Below, one piece after another: positions 1,691 to 33,191 of a stretch of DNA of 33,192 nucleotides. The DNA lies in NCBI GenBank assembly GCA_015522635.1, contig WALW01000022.1, positions 1 through 33,192 of the forward strand, in the 5' to 3' direction. The first letter of the stretch is position 1, and the number at the start of each line of letters is the position of its first letter. The notes beneath the pieces were generated by a model, which ran no database searches, was not told where the DNA came from, and worked only from the letters and a program-made list of their open reading frames with translations. The translations under genes were made by a program, and so were the position numbers. This DNA is from Candidatus Tiamatella incendiivivens (lineage in GTDB: Archaea > Thermoproteota > Thermoprotei_A > Sulfolobales > Acidilobaceae).

Positions 1691-2596
1691 ATGGATTCGA
1701 GGGTGTATAGTGAGTTCACTGGTAGGGAGCCGATTGGTGTGGTTTTGAATCACGCGGATCAGGATGGGTTGGTTGTAAGGCAGGGGTTGAAGGGTGTTGA
1801 GAGGCTTGAGGGGGTTCAGTTCCAGGGGGATGACAGTATCCTCCATGGTCTCGGGGAGGATGTTATCGCTGGGCTCTTAGCTGTTACCGGTTTGAAAGAG
1901 GATGAGGGTCTTAGTGTTGGGTTGTGTAGTGATGTTGGGGGTGCTGTTACTAGGTTAACGTTGAGGGGTGTCCGTTTCGAATTGGCAGATACTCCTCCTT
2001 TCCCCTACTCTGTTGGAGATGAGTACTGGTTTCATAGTGTTGTAGAAGGTGTGACTGGTAGGTATAAGCCTTTCCTGGATTGCAGGTCTACTCCGTGCAT
2101 TATAGATGGGAGTCTCGCAACCGGGGTGAGGAGGTACCCTATGGTTGACGGGGAGTATATGGTTTTCACGTCCTTCAACAAGTGGCTCTATACTCCTGGG
2201 AGGCTTGGCGCAGTATTCTATACACCCGGCTTCCCTGCCCGGTTGGAGTGCGGTGAGCCGAGTCCTTTGTTGCTAGCGTATGTTAAGGGCGTCCTGGATT
2301 ACCTTGCTTCCACAGGTATTGAGGGTGTTGAGAGTAGGGTGCTCGGGTTGACCGGGGAGTATGGTTGGCTTCTGGATAAAGCTGGTTATACTCCTCTTAC
2401 ACCTCCTGAGGGGGAGTATAGGGCTGGGATAGTGGCTTTCAGCCTTCCCCTTCCCAGCGGTGAGGTTGGCAGTATTAGGAGTAGGCTTAGTAGGATGGGT
2501 GTTAGGGTTGGGTTTGTTAGGAAGATTATGAGGTTGTCGCCTAGCTTCTATAATACTGTAGGGGATATTGATCCTGTTTTGAGGTTGCTTCCTTAG
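1691..2596 (+). CDS. Class V aminotransferase-like PLP protein, short form
   Basis: The 301-aa protein looks like fold-type I PLP enzymes of class V (cysteine desulfurase and serine-glyoxylate aminotransferase relatives). The middle holds CIIDG (Asp139, expected partner of the PLP ring nitrogen), then SFNKWLYTPGRLGAVFY, in which Lys164 sits at the Schiff-base Lys position of the usual HKWL-GP-G motif. The C-terminal domain ends with RVGFVRKIMRLSPSFYNT, resembling the small-domain Arg motif. It is roughly 60-90 residues shorter than usual class V enzymes: the N-terminal cofactor-binding region is reduced and lacks a recognisable phosphate-binding Gly/Ser-Thr loop. Activity is therefore uncertain. 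The ATG at 1691 follows GGAGGGG. The 3' end overlaps the mvk stop on the other strand by four bases. Confidence 0.6.
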   Translation: MDSRVYSEFTGREPIGVVLNHADQDGLVVRQGLKGVERLEGVQFQGDDSILHGLGEDVIAGLLAVTGLKEDEGLSVGLCSDVGGAVTRLTLRGVRFELADTPPFPYSVGDEYWFHSVVEGVTGRYKPFLDCRSTPCIIDGSLATGVRRYPMVDGEYMVFTSFNKWLYTPGRLGAVFYTPGFPARLECGEPSPLLLAYVKGVLDYLASTGIEGVESRVLGLTGEYGWLLDKAGYTPLTPPEGEYRAGIVAFSLPLPSGEVGSIRSRLSRMGVRVGFVRKIMRLSPSFYNTVGDIDPVLRLLP

Positions 2597-3573
2597 TCTC
2601 CCTCTATTTTAACTCCTTCAACACCGAATACTCCTGTCCCGCTCCATGGAGCGTTTTCCAGTAGTTTGGAGCGGATGTCCTCAGCGTTATCAGTGTGTGT
2701 TAGTGCTATTATTGCCCCACCGCGCCCTGCTCCTGTGAGCTTTGCTCCTAGTGCTCCCGCAGTTCTTGCTTTGTGTACTAGTCTTTCTATTCTCTCGTTC
2801 GATACTCCGATGGAGTATAGTAGGCCTTGGTTTATGTTCATGAGTTCCCCTACTACTTGTAGATCCCCATTCTCGAGTGCCGGGATTGATTCTTGGACTA
2901 CTGCTTCAGCGGCCTTATATATGTCTTCGAAGACGTTTTCATGTTTATCGTATAGTTTCAGGACTTCTAGGACGACGTCACCAGTCCTCCTCCTGACGCC
3001 TGTGTCTGCTATAACGAGTCTTCCACTGTTAATATTGACTGGTATTCTCCTGTAACCCTCTTCCTTCCTGTATACTATTACTCCGCCCTCGACTACGATG
3101 GTGTTGTCTATGCCGCTTGGTTTTCCATGGACTACTTTCTCTGCTTCATAGCTCATTCGGAGGAGGAATTCCCTGCTTATGTTTAGTCCTAGTAGTCTAC
3201 CGTAGGATGCTGTGTATGCAGCTGCGCTCGCCGCACTGGATCCTAGGCCTGCTGAGACGGGGATTTCAGAGTCTATTGTGATGTATGCGGGTTCGAGTTT
3301 GACTGTTTCCCTTAGTCTCTCGAGTATTTGGACGAATGGTTGGAAGACGTCTAGGTGACCTGTTTTTACTTTGAGCTTCCCCTTGTCGGGGTAGACTCTG
3401 GCTTGCATGCCTAGGTTCCTGCTTTCTATGATGAGGGGCCAGTCCTTCTTCACCCGGGAGCTCACGTATGCGCGGAGTCCTATGCTCCCTGCTATAGCGT
3501 GGTTTCCCCTGACCACGAAGTGTTCTCCGAATAGTATTATTTTCCCGGGAGCACTTGCTTTAACATTGTTCAT
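2593..3573 (-). CDS. mvk: Mevalonate kinase
   Basis: This GHMP-family kinase phosphorylates mevalonate to 5-phosphomevalonate with ATP, at the entry of the archaeal mevalonate route to the isoprenoid chains of membrane lipids. All three GHMP motifs are visible: N-terminal SAPGKIILFGEHFVV, the phosphate-binding loop PVSAGLGSSAASAAA, and C-terminal KLTGAGRGGAII. GKPSGIDN contains the Asp expected to act as catalytic base. Length (about 326 aa) is normal for archaeal enzymes. I chose the ATG at 3573. An in-frame TTG at 3588 would add five residues but has no ribosome site; the ATG has a weak GAAGTGG. A TATA-like element at 3624-3632 would start transcription near 3600. It runs convergently into the gene ending at 2596. 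Confidence 0.93.
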   Translation of the reverse strand: MNNVKASAPGKIILFGEHFVVRGNHAIAGSIGLRAYVSSRVKKDWPLIIESRNLGMQARVYPDKGKLKVKTGHLDVFQPFVQILERLRETVKLEPAYITIDSEIPVSAGLGSSAASAAAYTASYGRLLGLNISREFLLRMSYEAEKVVHGKPSGIDNTIVVEGGVIVYRKEEGYRRIPVNINSGRLVIADTGVRRRTGDVVLEVLKLYDKHENVFEDIYKAAEAVVQESIPALENGDLQVVGELMNINQGLLYSIGVSNERIERLVHKARTAGALGAKLTGAGRGGAIIALTHTDNAEDIRSKLLENAPWSGTGVFGVEGVKIEGD

Positions 3574-18825: not shown

Positions 18826-19794
18826 TTATTGTATTTCATTGTTTGGTATATAGGCTCCACAGAATTTACAGTACCCATTTTCTAGGCATCTGCCACAGAC
18901 CGGACATGCTTTACTTGAATCCTCACACTTCTTCGGTGGTTCAATATTGTTTTCGATCATCAGCCACCCAAGATAGAGTTGTACGGGATCGCTAGGCTTG
19001 TACTCTAATTTCTTCTCAACAAGCTTCCCTTTAACATGTTTTATACTCTTCATAGTAATCTCTTCTAAATACTTTTGAGATCCGCTTCCAAGAGTTACGG
19101 GTGTTTTCTCTCGAAGGGCTATGTCTACTAGGCCTCTCTCATAGAGTGTTCTTCTTAACAATAGCTTACCCATACGTCTACCCCTATCTAGGAGACAGTG
19201 TATAGGGGCTTCCAAGGCAACTCTTTTCGCGGCATTAGAATATAGTGGAGCGATAACGTTTAGGCCTATTTGATCTCCAACCCAGATGGTTGGCATCCAT
19301 GCTTTAATTACCATCCTTTTAATCCACTTTTTCAGTTCATAATCCGTCTTTGGAAATAAGAAGCTATACCCTAGAAAAAGCTCATCTCCTCCATCTCCTG
19401 ATAGGATGCAATTACATCCATCTTCTAATGCACGAGTTAAGGCCAAGTAATGGGAAGCATCAGCTGATACTTCGACGGGGTTGATTGTGACAAGTTTTCC
19501 AATAACCCACTTGACAGCTTCAATATAATCTTCTATGGATGGTTTCAATACTATATGTTTGTATACCCCTAGTTTCACAGCGGATTTAACCGCGTATTCG
19601 AGGTCCAGTGATCCGGGTAATGCTACTGTGTAGGCCGTTACGTTACTTAGATTAGCGTGGCTTGAGATAACATATGTTGTGTCGATGCCACCGCTTAGCA
19701 GGCTACAGTCACAGTCTTTCACGAGTTTCGAGGCTGACTCGTTTAAATATCTCCTAAGCCTCATACACTCGGGTTTTTCCACTCCAAGAACCAT
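18826..19794 (-). CDS. AsnB-like PP-loop synthetase without glutaminase domain, Cys-rich tail
   Basis: The 322-aa protein is the synthetase half of an asparagine-synthase-family enzyme. The PP-loop is SLLSGGIDTTYV (usual SGGLDSS), and the family signature CILSGDGGDELFLGYSFLFP follows around residues 130-150. There is no N-terminal class II glutaminase domain (no Cys2), so ammonia must come from another protein or from solution. After about residue 290 the protein ends in CPVCGRCLENGYCKFCGAYI, two C-x-x-C pairs that look like a zinc ribbon, as often seen in tRNA-thiolating PP-loop enzymes. The product could be an amide or a modified tRNA; free asparagine synthesis is only one option. It follows the DPH6-like gene by 40 nt (GGTGG ahead of the ATG), so both are one operon divergent from the cobalamin genes. 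Confidence 0.72.
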   Translation of the reverse strand: MVLGVEKPECMRLRRYLNESASKLVKDCDCSLLSGGIDTTYVISSHANLSNVTAYTVALPGSLDLEYAVKSAVKLGVYKHIVLKPSIEDYIEAVKWVIGKLVTINPVEVSADASHYLALTRALEDGCNCILSGDGGDELFLGYSFLFPKTDYELKKWIKRMVIKAWMPTIWVGDQIGLNVIAPLYSNAAKRVALEAPIHCLLDRGRRMGKLLLRRTLYERGLVDIALREKTPVTLGSGSQKYLEEITMKSIKHVKGKLVEKKLEYKPSDPVQLYLGWLMIENNIEPPKKCEDSSKACPVCGRCLENGYCKFCGAYIPNNEIQ

Positions 19795-19834
19795 GGTAGG
19801 CCACCGGGCAATCTGTTACTGATTGATTATTTGT

Positions 19835-20494
19835 TTACGTTGTTATTTGGAATATCCCATACGATCCATATTTATCCCTTTCAACGATTCGTCTTGGCCT
19901 GTATTCTAGGGGAGGAGTTTTCATAAGCGGTGATTTGTTGACTAGCGTATGGTATTCACCGTATTCCCCTATGGGGTCTGAGTTATATGCTTTCAGTATC
20001 CTATGGATATAACCCCAATTCCCTTGATGTATCCTCGTTCCGATAAGGGATTTAGGTAGTAATGGTATTGTTGCAATAATTGTGAATTCAATATCGTTCA
20101 TTATCAACTCCTCGTATAGTTTTGCAGTATCTTCTCCGAATAGAGGTTCGACCAGTTCTACACCACTTAGCTCGCTGACTCTTTTATGCCATTTAAGGTG
20201 CTCCTCTAATAGAACGTCCCCAGCTATTAGAGCTTCTACACCATGTATCTTTCTAATGGCTTCAGCCAGAGATTCCTGCTCCTTCCCCTTCTTAAGAGCA
20301 ATCCTTCTAATAGGGATACCCATAGCCAAGGCTATCTTCTCAACAATATGATAGTTTTCCAGGTGTGGGTTCGGGTATGGGAAGGTTGGAACTATGAACA
20401 TTAAGTGTGTCACCTTGTAGCCATCGCGGATCGCTCTCAGTATAGACAGTGTAGAATCTTTTCCGCCACTGAACAAAGCTACTGCCTTCTTCAA
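19835..20494 (-). CDS. DPH6-like ATP-dependent ammonia ligase, paralogue 1
   Basis: This 219-aa ATP-pyrophosphatase belongs to the DPH6/ATP_bind_4 family (diphthine-ammonia ligase). Motifs are the N-terminal PP-loop AVALFSGGKDSTLSILRA, IAGDVLLEEHLKWHKRV, VEPLFGEDTAKLYEELI, and the C-terminal GEYGEYHTLVNKSPLMK signature. DPH6 amidates diphthine on elongation factor 2, completing diphthamide. Another copy at 27179-27835 is very similar, so one of them probably has a different amidation substrate. The start is TTG at 20494, with GGTG 8 nt upstream; the same start layout is conserved in the paralogue. It leads an operon with the AsnB-like gene and is divergent from cobT over a gap with a perfect palindrome. 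Confidence 0.82.
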   Translation of the reverse strand: MKKAVALFSGGKDSTLSILRAIRDGYKVTHLMFIVPTFPYPNPHLENYHIVEKIALAMGIPIRRIALKKGKEQESLAEAIRKIHGVEALIAGDVLLEEHLKWHKRVSELSGVELVEPLFGEDTAKLYEELIMNDIEFTIIATIPLLPKSLIGTRIHQGNWGYIHRILKAYNSDPIGEYGEYHTLVNKSPLMKTPPLEYRPRRIVERDKYGSYGIFQITT

Positions 20495-20512
20495 AGCGGT
20501 ACACCATATCAG

Positions 20513-20531
20513 TACTGTATTTATTACAGTA
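20513..20531. promoter_or_regulatory. Palindromic operator candidate shared by DPH6-like and cobT operons
   Basis: The arms TACTGTA (20513-20519) and TACAGTA (20525-20531) are perfect reverse complements around TTTAT. The site occupies the middle of the 74-bp divergent promoter region. On the minus strand AATAAAT (about 20519-20526) lies about 28 nt before the DPH6-like TTG. On the plus strand TATGTTAAA (about 20530-20538) lies about 35 nt before the cobT ATG. A factor bound here would cover both TATA regions and could control both operons together, perhaps in response to corrinoid. The regulator is unknown. Confidence 0.55.
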
Positions 20532-20568
20532 TGTTAAACCACTATTAATTGGATACGGTGTCCAACAA

Positions 20569-21675
20569 ATGCCGTTGAAAACACTATTCAACACTAAACT
20601 GTACCGGCAATTTGCGTTAGCTAATCACAGTAAGGAACCTCATATCTATATAGTAATAGGGTCAACCAAAACCAGTACAATACCAGGAATAAGTATAGCG
20701 GGAGCGACCGCCGAGCTAACTCTCACAACACCATGCCTAGATATAGAATACTTGGTTACAGGGAAACCGTTATCTATGGATATATTACCCGTAACACCAA
20801 CCGGCATTCCCACACCGGCACTCGTGACAAGAGGGGTTCTAAATAAAGCGAAAATACCGGTTACAATCATTGATGCAGGAAGTTATCTTACTCCCAGGAT
20901 TCCACATGTGACACTGCCTTCAAAGCATATAGGCGGTAGAATAGATAAAGAAACTGCTCTTCCAGAGGGATATGCCGAGAAAATCTATAGGGAAGCACGA
21001 GTGTTTGGGCATAGTATAACAGGGGTAAACAATTTACTTGTACTAGCAGAGAGCATTCCAGGCGGTACAACAACAGCTCTCGGGGTATTGATAGGCCTAG
21101 GATACGAGGCCTACGGTAAAGTTTCCAGTTCTGGGCCTGAGAATCCTCATAAGCTAAAGAAGAGTATTGTAAGTAAGGCCTATGATAGATGCATTAAAAA
21201 GAACAGTTGTAGTGACCCGTTCAGAGTAGTTGAGGAGATGGGTGACCCTGTTCATATAGCATTAGCAGGGTTAGCCGCGGGAGTATTAGATGCGGGTGGA
21301 AGCCTAGTCTTATCCGGTGGCACACAGATGGCTAGCGTCCTAGCACTATTGAAACTATCGAGAGGAATAGATGTCGGGAGTGACCAGCTCATCCTAGTAA
21401 CAACTAAGTGGCTTATAGAGGATCCTTCTAGCGATTATCCCGGTCTTGTAAGGAGCGTCGATCCGAATGTTCCAGTATTATACTATGACTATGACTTCAG
21501 GGACTCTCCGTATGATGGATTGAAATCATATGAGAAGGGGTTTGTCAAGGAAGGCGTGGGAATAGGTGGTTCCGGCTATATCGCATTTGCAATCAGAGGA
21601 TTGAACGATAATGCCATCCTATCGGGAGTATATGAAGAGTATGAGAGGGTAGCGAGGGAGGCAGGTCTACTATGA
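20569..21675 (+). CDS. cobT: CobT-type base phosphoribosyltransferase
   Basis: The 368-aa protein fits the archaeal CobT family (TIGR00303-like). It transfers phosphoribose from nicotinate mononucleotide to the lower-ligand base (5,6-dimethylbenzimidazole or another base) to give alpha-ribazole phosphate. Recognisable parts are the AESIPGGTTTALGVLIGLGY motif in the middle, LDAGGSLVLSGGTQMASVLAL, and the C-terminal FVKEGVGIGGSGYIAF, in which the Glu matches the catalytic base region. The archaeal lower base cannot be inferred. The ATG at 20569 has GGTG 9 nt upstream. It is the first gene of the cobalamin operon and its stop overlaps the start of cbiS (ATGA). Confidence 0.88.
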   Translation: MPLKTLFNTKLYRQFALANHSKEPHIYIVIGSTKTSTIPGISIAGATAELTLTTPCLDIEYLVTGKPLSMDILPVTPTGIPTPALVTRGVLNKAKIPVTIIDAGSYLTPRIPHVTLPSKHIGGRIDKETALPEGYAEKIYREARVFGHSITGVNNLLVLAESIPGGTTTALGVLIGLGYEAYGKVSSSGPENPHKLKKSIVSKAYDRCIKKNSCSDPFRVVEEMGDPVHIALAGLAAGVLDAGGSLVLSGGTQMASVLALLKLSRGIDVGSDQLILVTTKWLIEDPSSDYPGLVRSVDPNVPVLYYDYDFRDSPYDGLKSYEKGFVKEGVGIGGSGYIAFAIRGLNDNAILSGVYEEYERVAREAGLL

Positions 21676-22787
21676 ATTCTACCCCACAGGTATATGTAAA
21701 GGATGGTATTATAGGAGTAAGGCTAAACGGGAGATACAAATCTATAGGGAATACTATTCACATGGGCGGATATCATCATATAACTGGAATAATTTTCAAA
21801 CAAGTCAACGAGTGTGGAGAGGAGTGTCTTAGTGAAAAATATGCTAGTGAAATAATTAGGAATGAAGGCTTAGATCCCAGAGAGACAGCGCTCTTCTTAA
21901 CAGCAGCTGAATTACCTAAATGGTCAAGTGTAAATCGAACCAGCCTGTATGAAGGTTTCCTATTAACTATTGTAACGGCCGGGTTTAAGCCTATGGCTTG
22001 TGTGGGTGGTAATGAGGGCGACAGTAATGCTGGAACGATTAACATAGCAGTTGTGATCGATGAATGTTTAAGTGACGTCGCTGCCATCGAACTTGTTTCT
22101 ATGGCATCATCAGCTAAAACAGCGGCAATAGGAGACTTACTACTAGGATGCGGTGCTGGAATGGGAAGGGCCTACGCTACAGGGACAGACGCTATTCTGG
22201 TAGCTTACCGTGATTGCATTGGGGAAAGATTCGCAGGTCCTCTTACAAATATTGGTAAGGCTGTCTTCGCTCAAATATACAATAATATCCACAGAATTGC
22301 CGCGAATATCAGCTTTGAGAAGAGATTCCAGCATATAACAGGGCTCACAATAGGAGAGTTGCTTGATATAGGAGTAGAATTCTATAATAAAGCCCCTGTT
22401 CCAGGTGTAAGCGTTGAAGAAGCTAGAGATGTTTTAGAGAGAATAATATTGGAAGCGCTCAGGGATCCCAATGTATGGGAGCTAATAATGGCGTCACGAA
22501 GCCTAGATGATTATGGTTTGGCAGGATCTATTCCTTACTTGTCCAGGAAGGATTACTTGGCTGACTATAAGGGGATAGTCGCCGATGAGCTCCTGGGGAT
22601 AACATTATCAATGTATCTGAACGGGTGGAAGGGGTTATTTGCATACTACTGGATTGATAGAATCAAAGATAAGGATAAGCTACCAGGGTCTCTACCAATG
22701 TTTATGGATGATATTATAGGTGCTCTTTTAGGCGGGTCTCTGAGCAAGTTATATGATCACTACCTTACAAGGGGCAAAGGGTCTTGA
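21672..22787 (+). CDS. cbiS: CbiS: adenosylcobinamide amidohydrolase (CbiZ) fused to alpha-ribazole phosphatase (CobZ)
   Basis: The 371-aa protein is much longer than CbiZ alone (about 220-250 aa). Residues 1-225 are CbiZ-like, with ACVGGNEGDSNAGTINIAVV and SSAKTAAIGDLLLGCG, and would remove aminopropanol from adenosylcobinamide to give adenosylcobyric acid. Residues about 240-371 resemble CobZ, the PgpA-related phosphatase: IVADELLGITLSMYLNGWKG, then a DRIKDKDKLPGSL segment and the acidic MFMDDIIGALLGG. The acidic pairs DE and DD and the DR-K motif match the PgpA-type metal-binding pattern. A bifunctional CbiS of this design was characterised in Methanopyrus kandleri. The start ATG overlaps the cobT stop by four bases. 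The fusion supplies the phosphatase otherwise missing from the cluster. Confidence 0.85.
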   Translation: MNSTPQVYVKDGIIGVRLNGRYKSIGNTIHMGGYHHITGIIFKQVNECGEECLSEKYASEIIRNEGLDPRETALFLTAAELPKWSSVNRTSLYEGFLLTIVTAGFKPMACVGGNEGDSNAGTINIAVVIDECLSDVAAIELVSMASSAKTAAIGDLLLGCGAGMGRAYATGTDAILVAYRDCIGERFAGPLTNIGKAVFAQIYNNIHRIAANISFEKRFQHITGLTIGELLDIGVEFYNKAPVPGVSVEEARDVLERIILEALRDPNVWELIMASRSLDDYGLAGSIPYLSRKDYLADYKGIVADELLGITLSMYLNGWKGLFAYYWIDRIKDKDKLPGSLPMFMDDIIGALLGGSLSKLYDHYLTRGKGS

Positions 22788-22800
22788 GGTTTGATGGATT

Positions 22801-23340
22801 TTGCCTTTAAACGTACTAATAATGGCTGGCGGGGAGTCCAGCAGGCTTGGAGGTTTCTATAAACCACTGATGAAGACGTGTAATGGAAGGAGTATATTAG
22901 ATAAGCTTGTGGAGGTTGGAAGAGAAGCTACTGGAGGAAATGTATTTGTAGCTATATCAATGCCGAATACTATTGCGCTTGGAAAGATAAATGCAGATAT
23001 GTTCATAGTAACCGGGGGGAGGGGATTCTGCTTTGACCTCAGTGACGCACTTTCAAGAGTAGATTTCCCTATCCTCGTTATCCCAGGCGACTTACCGTTG
23101 TTAACTGCTAGGGTGATACGGGAATTCTTATCCGAAGCAATGGCTAAACCATGGGATGTAGTTTCGCTAGAAATACCATACGGTTGTAATGGTTTAGAAG
23201 GTAAAGAGGGTTTCACAGGTATAGGATTATTTAAAAAAGATAATTTCTCGAGTTACGGATCAATAGAAATGTGCAGTTATCCCGATCTTCTCGATGTTGA
23301 CAGTTTTTCAGATTATAAGAAAGTACTGGGGGAATGCTAA
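22801..23340 (+). CDS. cobY: GTP:adenosylcobinamide-phosphate guanylyltransferase
   Basis: CobY is the archaeal replacement for the bacterial CobU transferase activity: it puts GMP on adenosylcobinamide phosphate to form AdoCbi-GDP. The 179-aa protein has the nucleotidyltransferase signature LIMAGGESSRLGGFYKPLMK at the N-terminus, VIPGDLPLLTARVI with the metal-binding Asp, and a family-typical short length. There is no kinase domain, which is normal for archaea that make AdoCbi-P through CbiB. Start is TTG at 22801; GAGGTTTGAT lies upstream, and a nearby ATG is out of frame. The gene sits 13 nt after cbiS, and its stop is 2 nt before the preferred cobD start. Confidence 0.87.
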   Translation: MPLNVLIMAGGESSRLGGFYKPLMKTCNGRSILDKLVEVGREATGGNVFVAISMPNTIALGKINADMFIVTGGRGFCFDLSDALSRVDFPILVIPGDLPLLTARVIREFLSEAMAKPWDVVSLEIPYGCNGLEGKEGFTGIGLFKKDNFSSYGSIEMCSYPDLLDVDSFSDYKKVLGEC

Positions 23341-23342
23341 TT

Positions 23343-24407
23343 ATGCCTACTAGATTTCACGGGGGATACAGAGGCGGATTAGATGTCATTGATTTCAGCG
23401 TGAACATCAATCCTCTTGCTCCACCAGGTTTTATAATGGAGAACGTCTATAAGTGCTTTGAGTCAATAAAATACTACCCAGACTGGGAGTATGATACCCT
23501 TAGGAAACGATTAGCAGAACTCTACGGCATTGATCCAGAGTTGATATATCCTTCCAACGGTGCTTCCCAAGGATTATTCACAGTCATTCACTACATAAAA
23601 CCTAGAACAATAATTTGGATTATACCCTCATACGGCGACTATGCCGACTTTGCGCTTGCCACAGGAATAAACCTCATCGAGATTCCTATGACGGATCAGG
23701 GAAGGGAATTCTATCTGGATTGGGTTAATGTTGTAAAGGTGGTTAGGAACTCTTTGAAGCCAAGGGTTGTGGTAATTGTGAACCCTGTAAATCCTACTGG
23801 AACATTGTTTAGCGATAGGGACATAGATGATTTCATAGCCATGCTTCCCGGCGATACCTATCTACTATTGGATGAAGCTTATATGGATCTCTCTAAGGGC
23901 GAGTTCTCATCATCATATAGTGGTGTAGACAGTGTTTTTACTGTCAAAAGCCTAACTAAGACACTTGGTTTGCCTGGTTTGAGAATAGGCCTTGTTATAG
24001 GATGGAAGGAAGGTATTGAAGGACTATGGAAAGTTACCGGTTCCTGGCAAGTGAACTCTATTGCTGAATGCACTCTTACTAGGATAATTGAGTCCTATAG
24101 GAGTGAATTAATGGGGTTCCTTAGGAAGTCCAAAGAGTATATTAGAAGGGAGAGACGGTGGCTGGGAAGAGAGCTTTCTGGAATAGGATTCCAAGTATAC
24201 CCGTCGGAAGCGAACTTTTTCTTAGTTCGGCATGAGTGGATTGACACGTTTGATCTAGTTCAAATGATGCTTAGATGCCGGATCTACCTAAGACGGGGAG
24301 ATACGTTCAGAGGATTAGGAAGCAAGTATACTAGAATTGCTGTTCGGCAGAGATCTGACAATAAAGAATTGGTGAGAGCGTTTGAGCAAACATCTAAACT
24401 TCTTTAA
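23343..24407 (+). CDS. cobD: CobD-like L-threonine-O-3-phosphate decarboxylase
   Basis: This fold-type I PLP enzyme, about 354 aa, provides (R)-1-amino-2-propanol phosphate, the linker joined to cobyric acid by CbiB. Family-typical elements are HGGYRGGLDVIDFSVNINPL at the N-terminus, YPSNGASQGLF, VNPVNPTGTLF, LLLDEAYMDLS, and FTVKSLTKTLGLPGLRIG with the PLP-binding Lys. The NINPL motif separates it from HisC-type histidinol-phosphate aminotransferases, and the cobalamin context agrees. I chose ATG 23343, with GGGGGA about 9 nt upstream; ATG 23334 is in frame but too close to that site. The 3' end overlaps cobS by 26 nt. Confidence 0.83.
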   Translation: MPTRFHGGYRGGLDVIDFSVNINPLAPPGFIMENVYKCFESIKYYPDWEYDTLRKRLAELYGIDPELIYPSNGASQGLFTVIHYIKPRTIIWIIPSYGDYADFALATGINLIEIPMTDQGREFYLDWVNVVKVVRNSLKPRVVVIVNPVNPTGTLFSDRDIDDFIAMLPGDTYLLLDEAYMDLSKGEFSSSYSGVDSVFTVKSLTKTLGLPGLRIGLVIGWKEGIEGLWKVTGSWQVNSIAECTLTRIIESYRSELMGFLRKSKEYIRRERRWLGRELSGIGFQVYPSEANFFLVRHEWIDTFDLVQMMLRCRIYLRRGDTFRGLGSKYTRIAVRQRSDNKELVRAFEQTSKLL

Positions 24408-25143
24408 AGAGCTAGTAGCGGAGCTCGGGTTCCTTACAATTCTACCAGTTCAGGCATATGATATAGACGCTGCTGCACGAGGACTCTACTGGTCTCCCAT
24501 TATAGGCTTAATAATAGGAGCGCTCTCGATTTTTCCAGCATATCTACCAATCGACCCTCTCCTAAAAGGGGTTACTACTTTCGTGTTGCTATACCTGTTC
24601 ACCGGATTATTACACTTGGATGGCTACGCCGATTTCTGCGACGTACTAGGATCGGGGTTCCGGGGGGAGGACGCGTTAAGGGTTCTCAAGGATCCTAGGA
24701 AAGGGGCGAAAGCTATTTCATGTACATTCCTATTGCTGATAACAGTTTATACCAGCCTCTTAGTTATTTTGCGTGAAAATCCTCTCATTATTATCTTCGT
24801 TAATGCAGGAGTATACGAATCCCTGTATTTGACTGCTCTCCTAGGAGAACCACCTGAGTATAAGGGTTTGGGAAGGCTTTTCATAAGGTACTCACGTAGA
24901 ACTGTGCATCTCAATATACTTACCATAATTATCATTTTAGCCGTGCTTGCTATGATTCGATCAGCTCTTGATGCATTCGGGTTTGGTTTAGGTCTTATGG
25001 CATCATTAATCTCTTCTGCCTACTCATCCAGAAGATCGTTGAATATTTTGGGAATGGTCAACGGAGACGTCATAGGCTTCTCCCTTGAGCTTGCTCGCGC
25101 AATAGGGTTTCTGGTTCTAGCTTTCGCTATAGGGTGGGGATGA
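24382..25143 (+). CDS. cobS: Adenosylcobalamin (5'-phosphate) synthase
   Basis: CobS condenses AdoCbi-GDP with alpha-ribazole or its phosphate, the last joining step of cobalamin synthesis, at the membrane. The 253-aa protein has about six to seven membrane helices, and after an initial helix pair the conserved acidic motif LLHLDGYADFCDVLGSGF followed by ALRVLKDPRKGAKA, the metal and nucleotide-binding block of the CobS/CDP-alcohol-like family. It ends with VNGDVIGFSLELAR, another typical element. Start is TTG at 24382 with GGTGAGAG four nt upstream, inside the cobD 3' end, so the genes are translationally linked. The cbiB ATG follows the TGA with no gap. Confidence 0.9.
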   Translation: MSKHLNFFKELVAELGFLTILPVQAYDIDAAARGLYWSPIIGLIIGALSIFPAYLPIDPLLKGVTTFVLLYLFTGLLHLDGYADFCDVLGSGFRGEDALRVLKDPRKGAKAISCTFLLLITVYTSLLVILRENPLIIIFVNAGVYESLYLTALLGEPPEYKGLGRLFIRYSRRTVHLNILTIIIILAVLAMIRSALDAFGFGLGLMASLISSAYSSRRSLNILGMVNGDVIGFSLELARAIGFLVLAFAIGWG

Positions 25144-26130
25144 ATGGATGCAAACTGGGTGACGAGTATTCTGTTGCTTAATAGGCCATCAATACTTTTA
25201 CCCGGATTCATACTAGGATTATTGTTAGATGCTATATACCCACTTCATAGAGGAATACTACTTAAACTCCACCCTGTCCATACATGTTATATCTACTCTA
25301 AAAAACTCTATAGGCCATATGCAGGTTATTTATGGGGAGTTTTAAACGCTGGGAGCTGTATAATAATCCATGTACTTCCCCCCGTGCTGTTATTATACGT
25401 GTCCAGTGTTCTCCCGAAACCTTATAGTTTAATAACTAGTATAATAGTGATTGCGGTTATTGTAAAGGTTAGTATGGGTATAACACTATTATTTACATCT
25501 GTGAGAAACGTTGGACATAAACTCTCTAATGGAGACGAGATGAGAGCTAGGAGATATGTACAAGGGCTCGTTAGGAGGAATGTATATACTCTAGACATTC
25601 CCCATGTACTGTCTGCCACGATAGAGTCATTCTCTGAAAGCCTGGTTGATGGTTATGTTAGCCCATTAACATATTTCTTTATGCTTGGTCCTTTAGGAGG
25701 GTTGTTACAGAGGTTGTCTAATACTCTCGATGGATCCCTCGGGTTTAAAGGCCCTCCTATGGTAAAGCAGGGATGGTTCTCGGCTAAACTTGATACTTTG
25801 ATGAACTATCTGCCTGCTAGAATCACAGGTATTCTTATCCTCCTTGTTTCTAAGTTAATGAAACACTCGAAAATATATGAACTTAATACTCTTAGGCGAA
25901 TGGCTTCACTTCTCGAGAGCGTGAATGCAGGCTGGCCTATTGGTGCAATGGCAATTGCCTTAGGTGTTAAATTAGAAAAGCCCGGCAACTATTCTATTGG
26001 AATAGGAGAACTACCTCATCTTAGGCATTTGTTCCAGGCACTTAAGATAGGGTTCCTTGTGATACTTGGTTATACATGTTTGGCCGTATTTCTTTATATG
26101 GTTGTGGCTAAAATTTTTATTGGCGTATGA
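25144..26130 (+). CDS. cbiB: Adenosylcobinamide-phosphate synthase CbiB
   Basis: CbiB joins adenosylcobyric acid with aminopropanol phosphate to give AdoCbi-P. The 328-aa membrane protein shows the family's first motif GFILGLLLDAIYPLHR, the DIPHVLSATIESFSESLVDG block corresponding to the N-x-V-A-x-A-x-E-S-x-E-N region with some substitutions, then PLTYFFMLGPLGGLLQRLSN and LMNYLPARITGILILL. The later segment has VNAGWPIGAMAIALGVKLEK, the family's N-x-G-x-P-x-x-x-A motif. About five to six hydrophobic helices. ATG at 25144 directly abuts the cobS stop, with GGGTGGGGATGA as ribosome site. It is the last gene of the cluster; CbiS opens and CbiB rebuilds the same bond, which is the salvage logic. 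Confidence 0.88.
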   Translation: MDANWVTSILLLNRPSILLPGFILGLLLDAIYPLHRGILLKLHPVHTCYIYSKKLYRPYAGYLWGVLNAGSCIIIHVLPPVLLLYVSSVLPKPYSLITSIIVIAVIVKVSMGITLLFTSVRNVGHKLSNGDEMRARRYVQGLVRRNVYTLDIPHVLSATIESFSESLVDGYVSPLTYFFMLGPLGGLLQRLSNTLDGSLGFKGPPMVKQGWFSAKLDTLMNYLPARITGILILLVSKLMKHSKIYELNTLRRMASLLESVNAGWPIGAMAIALGVKLEKPGNYSIGIGELPHLRHLFQALKIGFLVILGYTCLAVFLYMVVAKIFIGV

Positions 26131-26278
26131 GAGTATCTCTCTTTAATACTATGCTTATATAGGATTCTCGTTTTTAGTGGCAAGTGTATGAATTCCCTGG
26201 ATATTATTCGTATTGGAACAATACTTCATTCCAATGAGTATCTAGAATTTACGGTCGTGCTAAGGGCGTTTTATTGGA

Positions 26279-26688
26279 TTAGCAACATGGGTCTCCCTGA
26301 ATTTTGAGATTAGTGGTCTCTATATCGTTCTTCTTAATATAGGGTATTGCTTCAATATAGGGCCCAGCGATCCCAGCGTCATTGCTGTGAATATAGTATT
26401 CCAGTATGGGCAAGCCCCATATTTCAAAGTTACAGGTACAGCTATATGTTCCTGGATACCTGTTTATCTCTAAATAAGTATTCTAAAACCATGGGGGACC
26501 TCCGGGAAAACCTGCTGGTCAATTGAATTCTTTTTTTGTGGAGACCATATAGATGATTAATTCTATGTAATGTTTTTCATTGATGTAATAGAATAGTTTG
26601 TAGAGTTCCTCCACTACGTCATCTCTGGAATTGCAAATCACATTTCTAGTAAACTTGTTATTACAATACTATGAGGTGACCAAGACAT
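26279..26688 (-). pseudogene. Decayed gene with two in-frame stops and one frameshift
   Basis: In the 642-bp gap 26131-26772 the minus strand holds remains of a gene of about 135 codons. AAAGGAGAAC precedes an ATG at 26688 that reads MSWSPHSIVITSLLEM and then stops. One frame over, coding continues as RNVICNSRDDVVEELYKLFY and on to MVSTKKEFN, a TGA (26521), PAGFPGGPPWF, a TAG (26485), then LEINRYPGTYSCTCNFEIWG and EYYIHSNDAGIAGPYIEA up to DPCC and a TAA at 26279-26281. From 26548 down the frame is continuous apart from these two stops. The family is not recognised; Cys residues are near the C-terminus. The 148 bases before it (26131-26278) show nothing convincing, and the 84 bases after it hold the start region of the next gene. 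Confidence 0.6.
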
Positions 26689-26772
26689 GTTCTCCTTTAG
26701 ACTTGCAATTAGAGTTGAATAAGTTATATTTAGGGTTGACTGGTAATTATTTACGTTGATATAGGTGGTTTT

Positions 26773-27141
26773 ATGAGGTATGATAGAATAGCTGATATTT
26801 ACCTTGTAATAGGGTTTATCCTACTGCCCTTAGCATACTTGCTCAAGGAGTCCTCGGCCGGCGGAGTAATCGGCGTGACAAGCCTGTTGTTCCTGGGTAT
26901 AGGTCTACTCTTCCATCTTGCTGCTTTGACTCGTTTTAAGACGATTAGAAGGGTTGCGGATATCTATCTAGTCAGCAGTTTCGTACTGTTCGTCGTATCC
27001 TACTTCCTAAAGGGCTCGGAAATAGGGTTGGTATCGGGTCTGTTTGCTTCGGCTGTGTTCCAGGTTAGTATATTGTTCTATATAGTCGCGTTTGTCTACT
27101 GGTTTAACAGTAGGAGAACAGGGGAAGTTACAGTATCTTAA
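26773..27141 (+). CDS. Small membrane protein, 122 aa, tandem duplication of a 2-helix unit
   Basis: The protein has four predicted helices arranged as two similar halves. RIADIYLVIGFILLPLAYLL (residues 5-24) and RVADIYLVSSFVLFVVSYFL (residues 61-80) line up without gaps, each followed by a Gly/Ser-rich turn and a second helix ending before AAL or IVAFVYW. It thus arose by duplication of a two-helix hairpin of about 55 residues. Both copies keep the parallel order, so the two halves insert with the same orientation. Function is unknown. The ATG at 26773 has AGGTGG four nt upstream. It is flanked by the decayed gene and, convergently, by the second DPH6-like gene. Confidence 0.65.
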   Translation: MRYDRIADIYLVIGFILLPLAYLLKESSAGGVIGVTSLLFLGIGLLFHLAALTRFKTIRRVADIYLVSSFVLFVVSYFLKGSEIGLVSGLFASAVFQVSILFYIVAFVYWFNSRRTGEVTVS

Positions 27142-27178: not shown

Positions 27179-27835
27179 TTATGGGGCTATGTTGCATATG
27201 CCGTATGACCCGTAGTCGCCCTTATTGACTGTATAGTGGAGTGTATAGTTTAGCGGGATCTTCATGAGGGGAGAATTGTTCACGAGGGTATGGTATTCAC
27301 CGTATTCTCCTATCGGATCCGACCTGTGGGCTTTTAGTAGTGTAAGTATGTGATCACTGTTTCCACCATGGACTCTCGTCCCTATGAGGTCTCTCGGCAA
27401 TTGCGGTGTTACTCCTATGATTGTGAATTCAATTCCATACTTGAACAGTTCTCTGTATAAGTTGCTAGTGTCTTCACCGTAGAGGGGTTCTATTAGCTCT
27501 AACCCACATAGCTCACAGACTTTCTTATGCCACTTAACGTGATCTTCAAGTAAAACATCTCCAGCCACTAAAGCCTCGGTGTTATCTGTTTGTTTTATAG
27601 CTTCAGCCAGTGACTCTTGTTCCCTACCTTCCTCTAGTTCTACAATTTTTATGGGAATTCCCATGGAGTCTGATATTCTCCTTACTATGTGGACATTTTC
27701 CAAGTGAGGGTTCGGTAGTGGTAGTGTAGGCACCATGAATAAAAGTTGTTTAACCTGGTAACCCATTCTTACAGCTCTTATAATTGATAGCATTGAATCT
27801 TTGCCGCCACTGAATAATGCAATCGCGTTCTTCAA
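27179..27835 (-). CDS. DPH6-like ATP-dependent ammonia ligase, paralogue 2
   Basis: The protein, about 218 aa, is a close paralogue of the one at 19835-20494. It shares the PP-loop AIALFSGGKDSMLSIIRAVR, EALVAGDVLLEDHVKWHKKV, IEPLYGEDTSNLYRELF and GEYGEYHTLVNNSPLMK, plus the C-terminal YGSYGI ending. It may be the genuine diphthine-ammonia ligase acting on elongation factor 2, or the divergent one; the sequence alone does not decide. I place the start at TTG 27835. The paralogue starts at the equivalent TTG-AAG-AAx-GCx, and both have GGTG 8-9 nt upstream. An in-frame TTG at 27859 and ATG at 27850 would add a tail without a ribosome site. It stands alone and converges with the small membrane protein gene. 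Confidence 0.82.
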   Translation of the reverse strand: MKNAIALFSGGKDSMLSIIRAVRMGYQVKQLLFMVPTLPLPNPHLENVHIVRRISDSMGIPIKIVELEEGREQESLAEAIKQTDNTEALVAGDVLLEDHVKWHKKVCELCGLELIEPLYGEDTSNLYRELFKYGIEFTIIGVTPQLPRDLIGTRVHGGNSDHILTLLKAHRSDPIGEYGEYHTLVNNSPLMKIPLNYTLHYTVNKGDYGSYGICNIAP

Positions 27836-27900
27836 ATCATCCTGCACCATTAGCTTCAATATATTAGTTTGGTATATGTGAATATTATTCTTTTAATACT

Positions 27901-33112: not shown

Positions 33113-33191
33113 GCGGCCGTCGTCTAGCCTGGACTAGGACACCGGCCTTCCAAGCCGGGGGTCCCGGGTTCAAATCCCGGCGGCCGCACCA
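33113..33191 (+). tRNA. tRNA-Gly (UCC anticodon), CCA encoded
   Basis: A full cloverleaf folds. The acceptor stem is GCGGCCG with CGGCCGC (7 bp). The D arm has stem GTCT/GGAC and an 11-nt loop. The anticodon stem CCGGC/GCCGG has loop CTTCCAA, giving anticodon TCC. The variable loop is GGGTC. The T arm is CCGGG/CCCGG with loop TTCAAAT. The discriminator A at 33188 is followed by CCA (33189-33191) in the DNA. There is no intron. The anticodon reads GGA and, by wobble, GGG glycine codons. The gene ends one base from the window edge. Confidence 0.96.

Follow-up and report, generated by a model that had tools for sequence, protein, structure and literature searches.

A cobamide island flanked by PP-loop genes

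We analysed a stretch of 33,192 nucleotides (the window) from contig C22 (WALW01000022.1) of the archaeon Candidatus Tiamatella incendiivivens, whose genome comprises 1.45 Mb. The window contains an island of six contiguous cobamide genes, cobT-cbiS-cobY-cobD-cobS-cbiB, and, on the opposite strand across a divergent gap, two genes for PP-loop proteins, one AsnB-like and one of the DUF71 family. The question addressed here is whether this pair may form corrinoid amides in place of the amidases CbiA and CbiP. The gene content and the 74-bp gap had been described in an earlier note made from the sequence alone; open reading frame (ORF) positions bear out the arrangement, and profile searches back the families of the six genes, CobY being the weakest assignment. 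The features are as follows.

18826-19794, minus strand: AsnB-like PP-loop protein without a glutaminase domain, with a C-terminal zinc ribbon (PF00733 only; SGGxD, GDE and RxK)
19835-20494, minus strand: DUF71-B12 copy 1, GEYGEYHT motif (PF01902; His at the position of Dph6 Glu188)
20495-20568, no strand: divergent intergenic region of 74 bp separating the two operons
20569-21675, plus strand: cobT, nicotinate mononucleotide-dependent phosphoribosyltransferase (TIGR00303, 307 bits, cut-off 240)
21672-22787, plus strand: cbiS, CbiZ amidohydrolase and CobZ phosphatase (PF01955; NF038002, 222 bits, just missing the cut-off of 250; TIGR03161)
22801-23340, plus strand: cobY-like nucleotidyltransferase (weak matches to PF12804 (NTP_transf_3) and TIGR00454; position conserved among relatives)
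23334-24407, plus strand: cobD, threonine phosphate decarboxylase (TIGR01140, 218 bits)
24382-25143, plus strand: cobS, cobamide synthase (PF02654)
25144-26130, plus strand: cbiB, adenosylcobinamide phosphate synthase (PF03186; NF002281 above cut-off)
27179-27859, minus strand: DUF71-B12 copy 2, GEYGEYHT motif (PF01902; 63% identity to copy 1)
33113-33188, plus strand: tRNA gene at the extreme contig end (Rfam)

The second DUF71 gene, which the earlier note had overlooked together with a canonical Dph6 gene on contig C27, lies just past cbiB and adjoins a phosphoribosyltransferase gene; the two copies flank the island, one on either side. The stretch of about 640 bp (26131-26772) that separates cbiB from a small ORF resembling a membrane protein (26773-27141) contains no ORF of at least 80 residues and is possibly decayed sequence. 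The Rfam search of the window revealed only the terminal tRNA and no cobalamin riboswitch, and matches in a scan for sigma-70 promoters and terminators were no more frequent than in shuffled sequences. The absence of CbiA and CbiP, previously remarked on for the window, extends to the whole host genome, in which we found neither these GATase_3 proteins nor CbiC, the marker used here for corrin-ring synthesis. The host can therefore be regarded as a corrinoid salvager.

The AsnB-like protein

The AsnB-like protein consists of 322 residues with the PP-loop at residue 34. Its sole domain match was the synthetase domain PF00733, in agreement with the earlier description of a synthetase lacking glutaminase; an N-terminal class-II glutaminase domain was not found. 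The SGGxD of the PP-loop, the GDE motif with its D-E pair and the lysine of the C-terminal RxK were all invariant in the alignment, and the zinc ribbon has the form CPxCG...CxxCG. With TIGR01536, the model for glutamine-hydrolysing asparagine synthase, the score was 65 bits against a cut-off of 267. An AlphaFold2 model (predicted local distance difference test score (pLDDT) 87) gave AsnB, carbapenam and beta-lactam synthetases as best matches in the PDB. The protein has the synthetase domain, SGGxD, RxK and fold in common with these enzymes, but differs from them in the missing N-terminal glutaminase, the zinc ribbon and its phylogenetic position. In a quick tree, the AsnB-like proteins formed one clade (support 100) separate from the sampled generic AsnB, taking in the window protein, Thermoproteaceae-like and Nitrososphaeria-like proteins and one bacterial member. 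A scan of genome contigs with the AsnB alignment recovered mainly generic AsnB, leaving only about eight useful loci. An exchange of Glu348 for Asp, considered as proof of chemistry other than asparagine formation, was dropped, as the sampled outgroup AsnB also carry Asp; these outgroup sequences had been selected by a pattern favouring Asp at this position. In open-licence full texts, we found no publication on this protein as a DUF71 partner or proposing it as a CbiP substitute.

The DUF71 proteins

Both DUF71 proteins of the window matched PF01902/COG2102 at 109-111 bits (cut-off 23.2). In 2012, de Crecy-Lagard et al. (PMC3541065) divided the DUF71 family into Dph6, with the motif EGGE/DxE, and DUF71-B12, with ENGE[FY]H; they showed that genes of the latter subfamily cluster with cbiB and btuFCD, and tied it to the salvage of B12. 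In the GEYGEYHT of the window proteins, the His replacing Dph6 Glu188 is retained and the Asn of E-N-G-E-[FY]-H is a Tyr. The EGGE/DxE motif is absent, EYGEYH standing in its place, and scores with the NCBIfam Dph6 model were 102-109 (cut-off 197). A third DUF71 protein, encoded on contig C27, carries EGGEAET and is the canonical Dph6 of this genome. Judged by motif, by their place beside the cbiB island and by this separate Dph6, the window proteins are assigned to DUF71-B12 and not to Dph6. They share with the subfamily (PMC3541065) the PF01902 fold, the His residue and a neighbourhood of the btuFCD/cbiB type, and differ in having EYGEYH instead of ENGEYH and in occurring as two paralogues on either side of the island.

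The AlphaFold2 model of copy 1 (pLDDT 93) most closely matched the Dph6-like structures PH1257 and PF0828. The fold and PP-loop are common to both, and the ammonia-ligase chemistry of Dph6 serves as a model here, although the EGGExE of Dph6 is altered in the window proteins. Phylogenetically, copies 1 and 2 are each other's nearest relatives, while DUF71-B12 proteins in the family of the host fall into several distant sub-lineages, as if the gene had been repeatedly exchanged while the need for it stayed.

The 2012 study (PMC3541065) proposed that DUF71-B12 takes on the job of bacterial CbiZ, an amidohydrolase acting on pseudo-B12, or has another salvage role. It also describes full AsnB proteins fused to DUF71 in a few archaea, discussed as an ammonia source for Dph6; a stand-alone AsnB-like protein in B12 clusters is not discussed in the sections consulted. 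A 2016 review still listed the function of DUF71-B12 as unknown. The statement of the earlier note that neither PP-loop protein is a known cobalamin gene thus has to be withdrawn for the DUF71 member.

Conserved gene neighbourhoods

The comparison drew on stretches of roughly 50 genomes belonging to the class. The order cobT-cbiS-cobY-cobD-cobS-cbiB-asnB recurs across families, with DUF71 adjoining asnB or flanking the island, and the genes often overlap; the AsnB-like gene frequently lies directly 3' of cbiB in one operon. As the six-gene order is found with AsnB, DUF71 or both in dozens of genomes, the adjacency in the window is not a matter of chance. Links to corrinoid transport and use were also seen. 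A Thermoproteota metagenome-assembled genome (MAG) displays BtuC-BtuD...DUF71-asnB...cbiS-cobY-cobD-cobS-cbiB (L146), a Desulfobacterales bacterium BtuB-asnB-DUF71-BtuF-BtuC (L151), and in L147 the AsnB-like gene adjoins a BtuF-like gene. In a Nitrososphaera MAG, it directly follows the genes for methylmalonyl-CoA mutase and MeaB (L150, 6256-10945).

The module also seems to disappear as a unit. In G060, the other sampled genome of the host genus (98% complete), CbiB, CbiZ, the AsnB-like protein and DUF71-B12 are all missing together, and in G049 (L130, 7376-9595) a split DUF71, a truncated AsnB-like gene and a CbiB with a stop codon look like joint decay.

Two side observations concern the same module. 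The B12 operon of L146 includes, between BtuCD and DUF71-asnB, a PfkB/ribokinase-like gene (2204-3142) whose product could be a missing kinase of the nucleotide-loop branch. G019 harbours two separate AsnB-like genes, two DUF71-B12 genes, one of them shortened, and a second CbiZ (L119, L120).

Co-occurrence with CbiB and absence of CbiA and CbiP

A single, fixed set, comprising 147 genomes of the class, was used to count co-occurrence. The AsnB-like protein was present in 48 of the 54 genomes with CbiB and without CbiA/CbiP, in none of the 32 with CbiB and CbiA/CbiP, and in 5 of the 61 without CbiB. DUF71-B12 was accompanied by the AsnB-like protein in 46 of 48 genomes and by CbiZ in 41. Together with the conserved synteny, this tracking of CbiB and strong anti-correlation with CbiA/CbiP, for which the earlier note had suggested looking, supports a place of the pair in corrinoid metabolism and not in diphthamide formation.

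Genomes that make the corrin ring are particularly informative. Four CbiC-positive genomes from two lineages (G042, G107, G182 and G200) lack any full-length GATase_3 protein, and all four possess CbiB, the AsnB-like protein and DUF71-B12; G340 likewise has CbiC and no full-length GATase_3 protein, but is only 88% complete. G042, a probable Ignisphaera, harbours the complete set cbiG, cbiE, cbiX-cbiC, cbiH, cbiD, cbiT, cbiL and cbiF, whereas CbiC is missing in its sampled congeners other than G107. One stretch of this CbiA/CbiP-less genome (L124, G042:C2:294001-314000) carries hem genes along with the full anaerobic corrin cluster. In G200 (L224), the order cbiXC-cbiH-cbiD-cbiT-cbiL-cbiF-DUF71-asnB forms one operon, the pair being its last two genes, a slot where amidation of cobyrinic acid would follow.

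In the other Thermoproteaceae-like (f24) genomes, CbiP is missing and the CbiA family is represented by one or two proteins. In G161 (L235, 1-4444), the CbiA-family gene, scored as cobyrinate diamide synthase by NCBIfam, is found in the order DsrK-SUMT-CbiA-DsrE; owing to this position in a dsr cluster, we rejected it as a corrin enzyme. Thermoproteus tenax has two cbiA genes, TTX_0412 and TTX_1195, near apsAB and dsrABCGK (PMC3189178). Both the lone 'CbiA' of G161 and these two T. tenax genes probably represent DsrN, the siroheme amidase (PMC10504309, PMC3189178). DsrN, which shares amidation of tetrapyrrole side chains with the function proposed here, would explain the lone 'CbiA' of this Thermoproteaceae-like genome, G161, and stands outside the module.

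A third pattern occurs in families f18, f48 and f52, where the single GATase_3 protein is a CbiA adjoining cbiC, CbiP is missing, and the AsnB-like protein is present without DUF71-B12. Family f52 groups with a Nitrososphaera MAG in the AsnB tree, and the three families are probably Nitrososphaeria, ammonia-oxidising archaea. Nitrosopumilus maritimus is reported to release cobalamin; if its group is without CbiP, a substitute must therefore exist.

Of the 69 CbiC-positive genomes, 37 lack CbiP, and 35 of these have the AsnB-like protein, against 1 of the 32 with CbiP (Fisher test, p = 4e-16); counted by family, the figures were 10/10 and 1/4 (p = 0.011). Several points weigh against taking this as replacement of CbiA/CbiP. 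Genome-level p-values overstate independence because the genomes share ancestry, and part of the sampled genomes are incomplete. CbiP was explicitly classified in only 1 of 28 genomes of family f4, the others having two strong GATase_3 matches each. There are exceptions in both directions: G423 has both CbiP and the AsnB-like protein, and G303 and G201 have neither. DUF71-B12 occurs together with CbiA in G206, G430 and G268, so that its anti-correlation is not strict. In Nitrososphaeria-like genomes the AsnB-like gene is not next to corrin genes. Finally, most carriers are salvage-only, and their need for a biosynthetic amidase is not obvious.

Proposed function and alternatives

We lean, with some reserve, towards the view that the AsnB-like protein, with or without DUF71-B12, is an alternative corrinoid amide synthetase that takes the place of CbiA/CbiP and that, in the salvage-only host, would finish or repair scavenged corrinoids. 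A broader proposal, which we put forward tentatively, is that archaea possess a second, unrelated and ammonia-using route of corrin amidation. The AsnB-like protein, with or without DUF71-B12, would fill the CbiP gap in Nitrososphaeria-like genomes, both proteins together would fill the CbiA and CbiP gap in Thermoproteaceae- and Ignisphaera-like genomes, and in salvage-only archaea the role would be finishing or repair.

In the mechanism that we infer from genome context, these stand-alone, glutaminase-less PP-loop enzymes would activate peripheral corrin carboxylates with ATP, presumably by adenylation, and use ammonia to turn them into carboxamides, replacing the glutamine-dependent CbiA and CbiP. 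The AsnB-like protein most likely stands in for CbiP, acting by itself in genomes that have CbiA; in those that lack CbiA as well, the two proteins would carry out the full set of amidations. In this salvage-only host, the pair would act ahead of the attachment of aminopropanol-phosphate by CbiB, completing or repairing under-amidated corrinoids taken up by scavenging. The proposed reaction and pathway position are those of CbiA/CobB and CbiP/CobQ; the pair, in contrast, belongs to an unrelated protein family, with no match to GATase_3 (PF07685) or to the N-terminal ATPase domain of CbiA/CbiP in either the AsnB-like or the DUF71 proteins, and presumably uses ammonia, not glutamine. DUF71-B12 is the less certain half because of the carriers that keep CbiA, and may contribute to the step of CbiP or have a different role. 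The earlier idea that the pair re-amidates deamidated corrinoids thus gains strong comparative support as regards amidation. Its repair element, unproven, is one possible use only, since the role in genomes that make corrins de novo would be plain biosynthesis; heat-driven deamidation makes repair plausible in this host.

The main rival casts DUF71-B12 as an ATP-linked amidohydrolase or remodelling enzyme for cobamides, acting on pseudo-B12 as bacterial CbiZ does, with the AsnB-like protein as its partner; the pair would then serve remodelling and not amide formation. The hypothesis was drawn from the anti-correlation of CbiZ and DUF71-B12 in bacteria and from the Glu-to-His change (PMC3541065), and the bacterial linkage to btuFCD seen in L151 agrees with it. 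We nevertheless consider it unlikely. The retention of CbiZ in most DUF71-B12 genomes of the class shows no replacement pattern and does not support such a role in this clade. Amide hydrolysis requires no ATP. Moreover, an amidohydrolase leaves unexplained why, in a CbiA/CbiP-less genome, a de novo corrin operon ends with the two genes, and does not account for the way the AsnB-like protein tracks the loss of CbiP.

Alternatively, the pair might help CbiB, by adenylating the f-propionate of cobyric acid or by supplying an activated intermediate for the attachment of aminopropanol-phosphate. The frequent position of the AsnB-like gene immediately after cbiB would fit, but all 32 genomes with CbiB and CbiA/CbiP do without the protein, and the anti-correlation with CbiP would be left unexplained; we regard this as distinctly improbable. 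Even less credible is a role of the AsnB-like protein as an ordinary synthetase of a small molecule such as asparagine, travelling with the island: in spite of its homology to the synthetase domain of AsnB, its separate clade and low TIGR01536 score argue otherwise, and it occurs according to the CbiB and CbiP status of a genome, not as a general need for amino acids would predict. The suggestion of the earlier note that the genes serve diphthamide or tRNA modification and adjoin the island by chance, based on the homology of DUF71 to Dph6, can be set aside as highly improbable in view of the separate Dph6, the differing catalytic motif, synteny conserved across families and the joint absence of the cob genes and the pair from G060.

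Implications

The six amidations for which CbiA and CbiP are responsible belong to the core of B12 synthesis. Ammonia oxidisers are thought to supply much of the marine B12. Several archaeal groups with the corrin pathway, probably including ammonia oxidisers, appear to be without CbiP or without both enzymes, and a two-gene candidate for this gap makes the question directly testable. The tie of DUF71-B12 to B12 salvage was already known (PMC3541065); the AsnB-like partner, absent from the open-licence papers searched, is put forward here as a candidate replacement of CbiA/CbiP. Whereas the idea of 2012 was hydrolysis, the strong link to this stand-alone protein and to the loss of CbiA/CbiP points to amide formation, so that the orphan family gains a new and opposite hypothesis, that of a ligase rather than a hydrolase. 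TIGR00379 and TIGR00313, the models for CbiA/CbiP, have been used as markers of the B12 pathway in a survey (PMC4303638). If the proposal is true, the way in which B12 producers are recognized from genomes would change.

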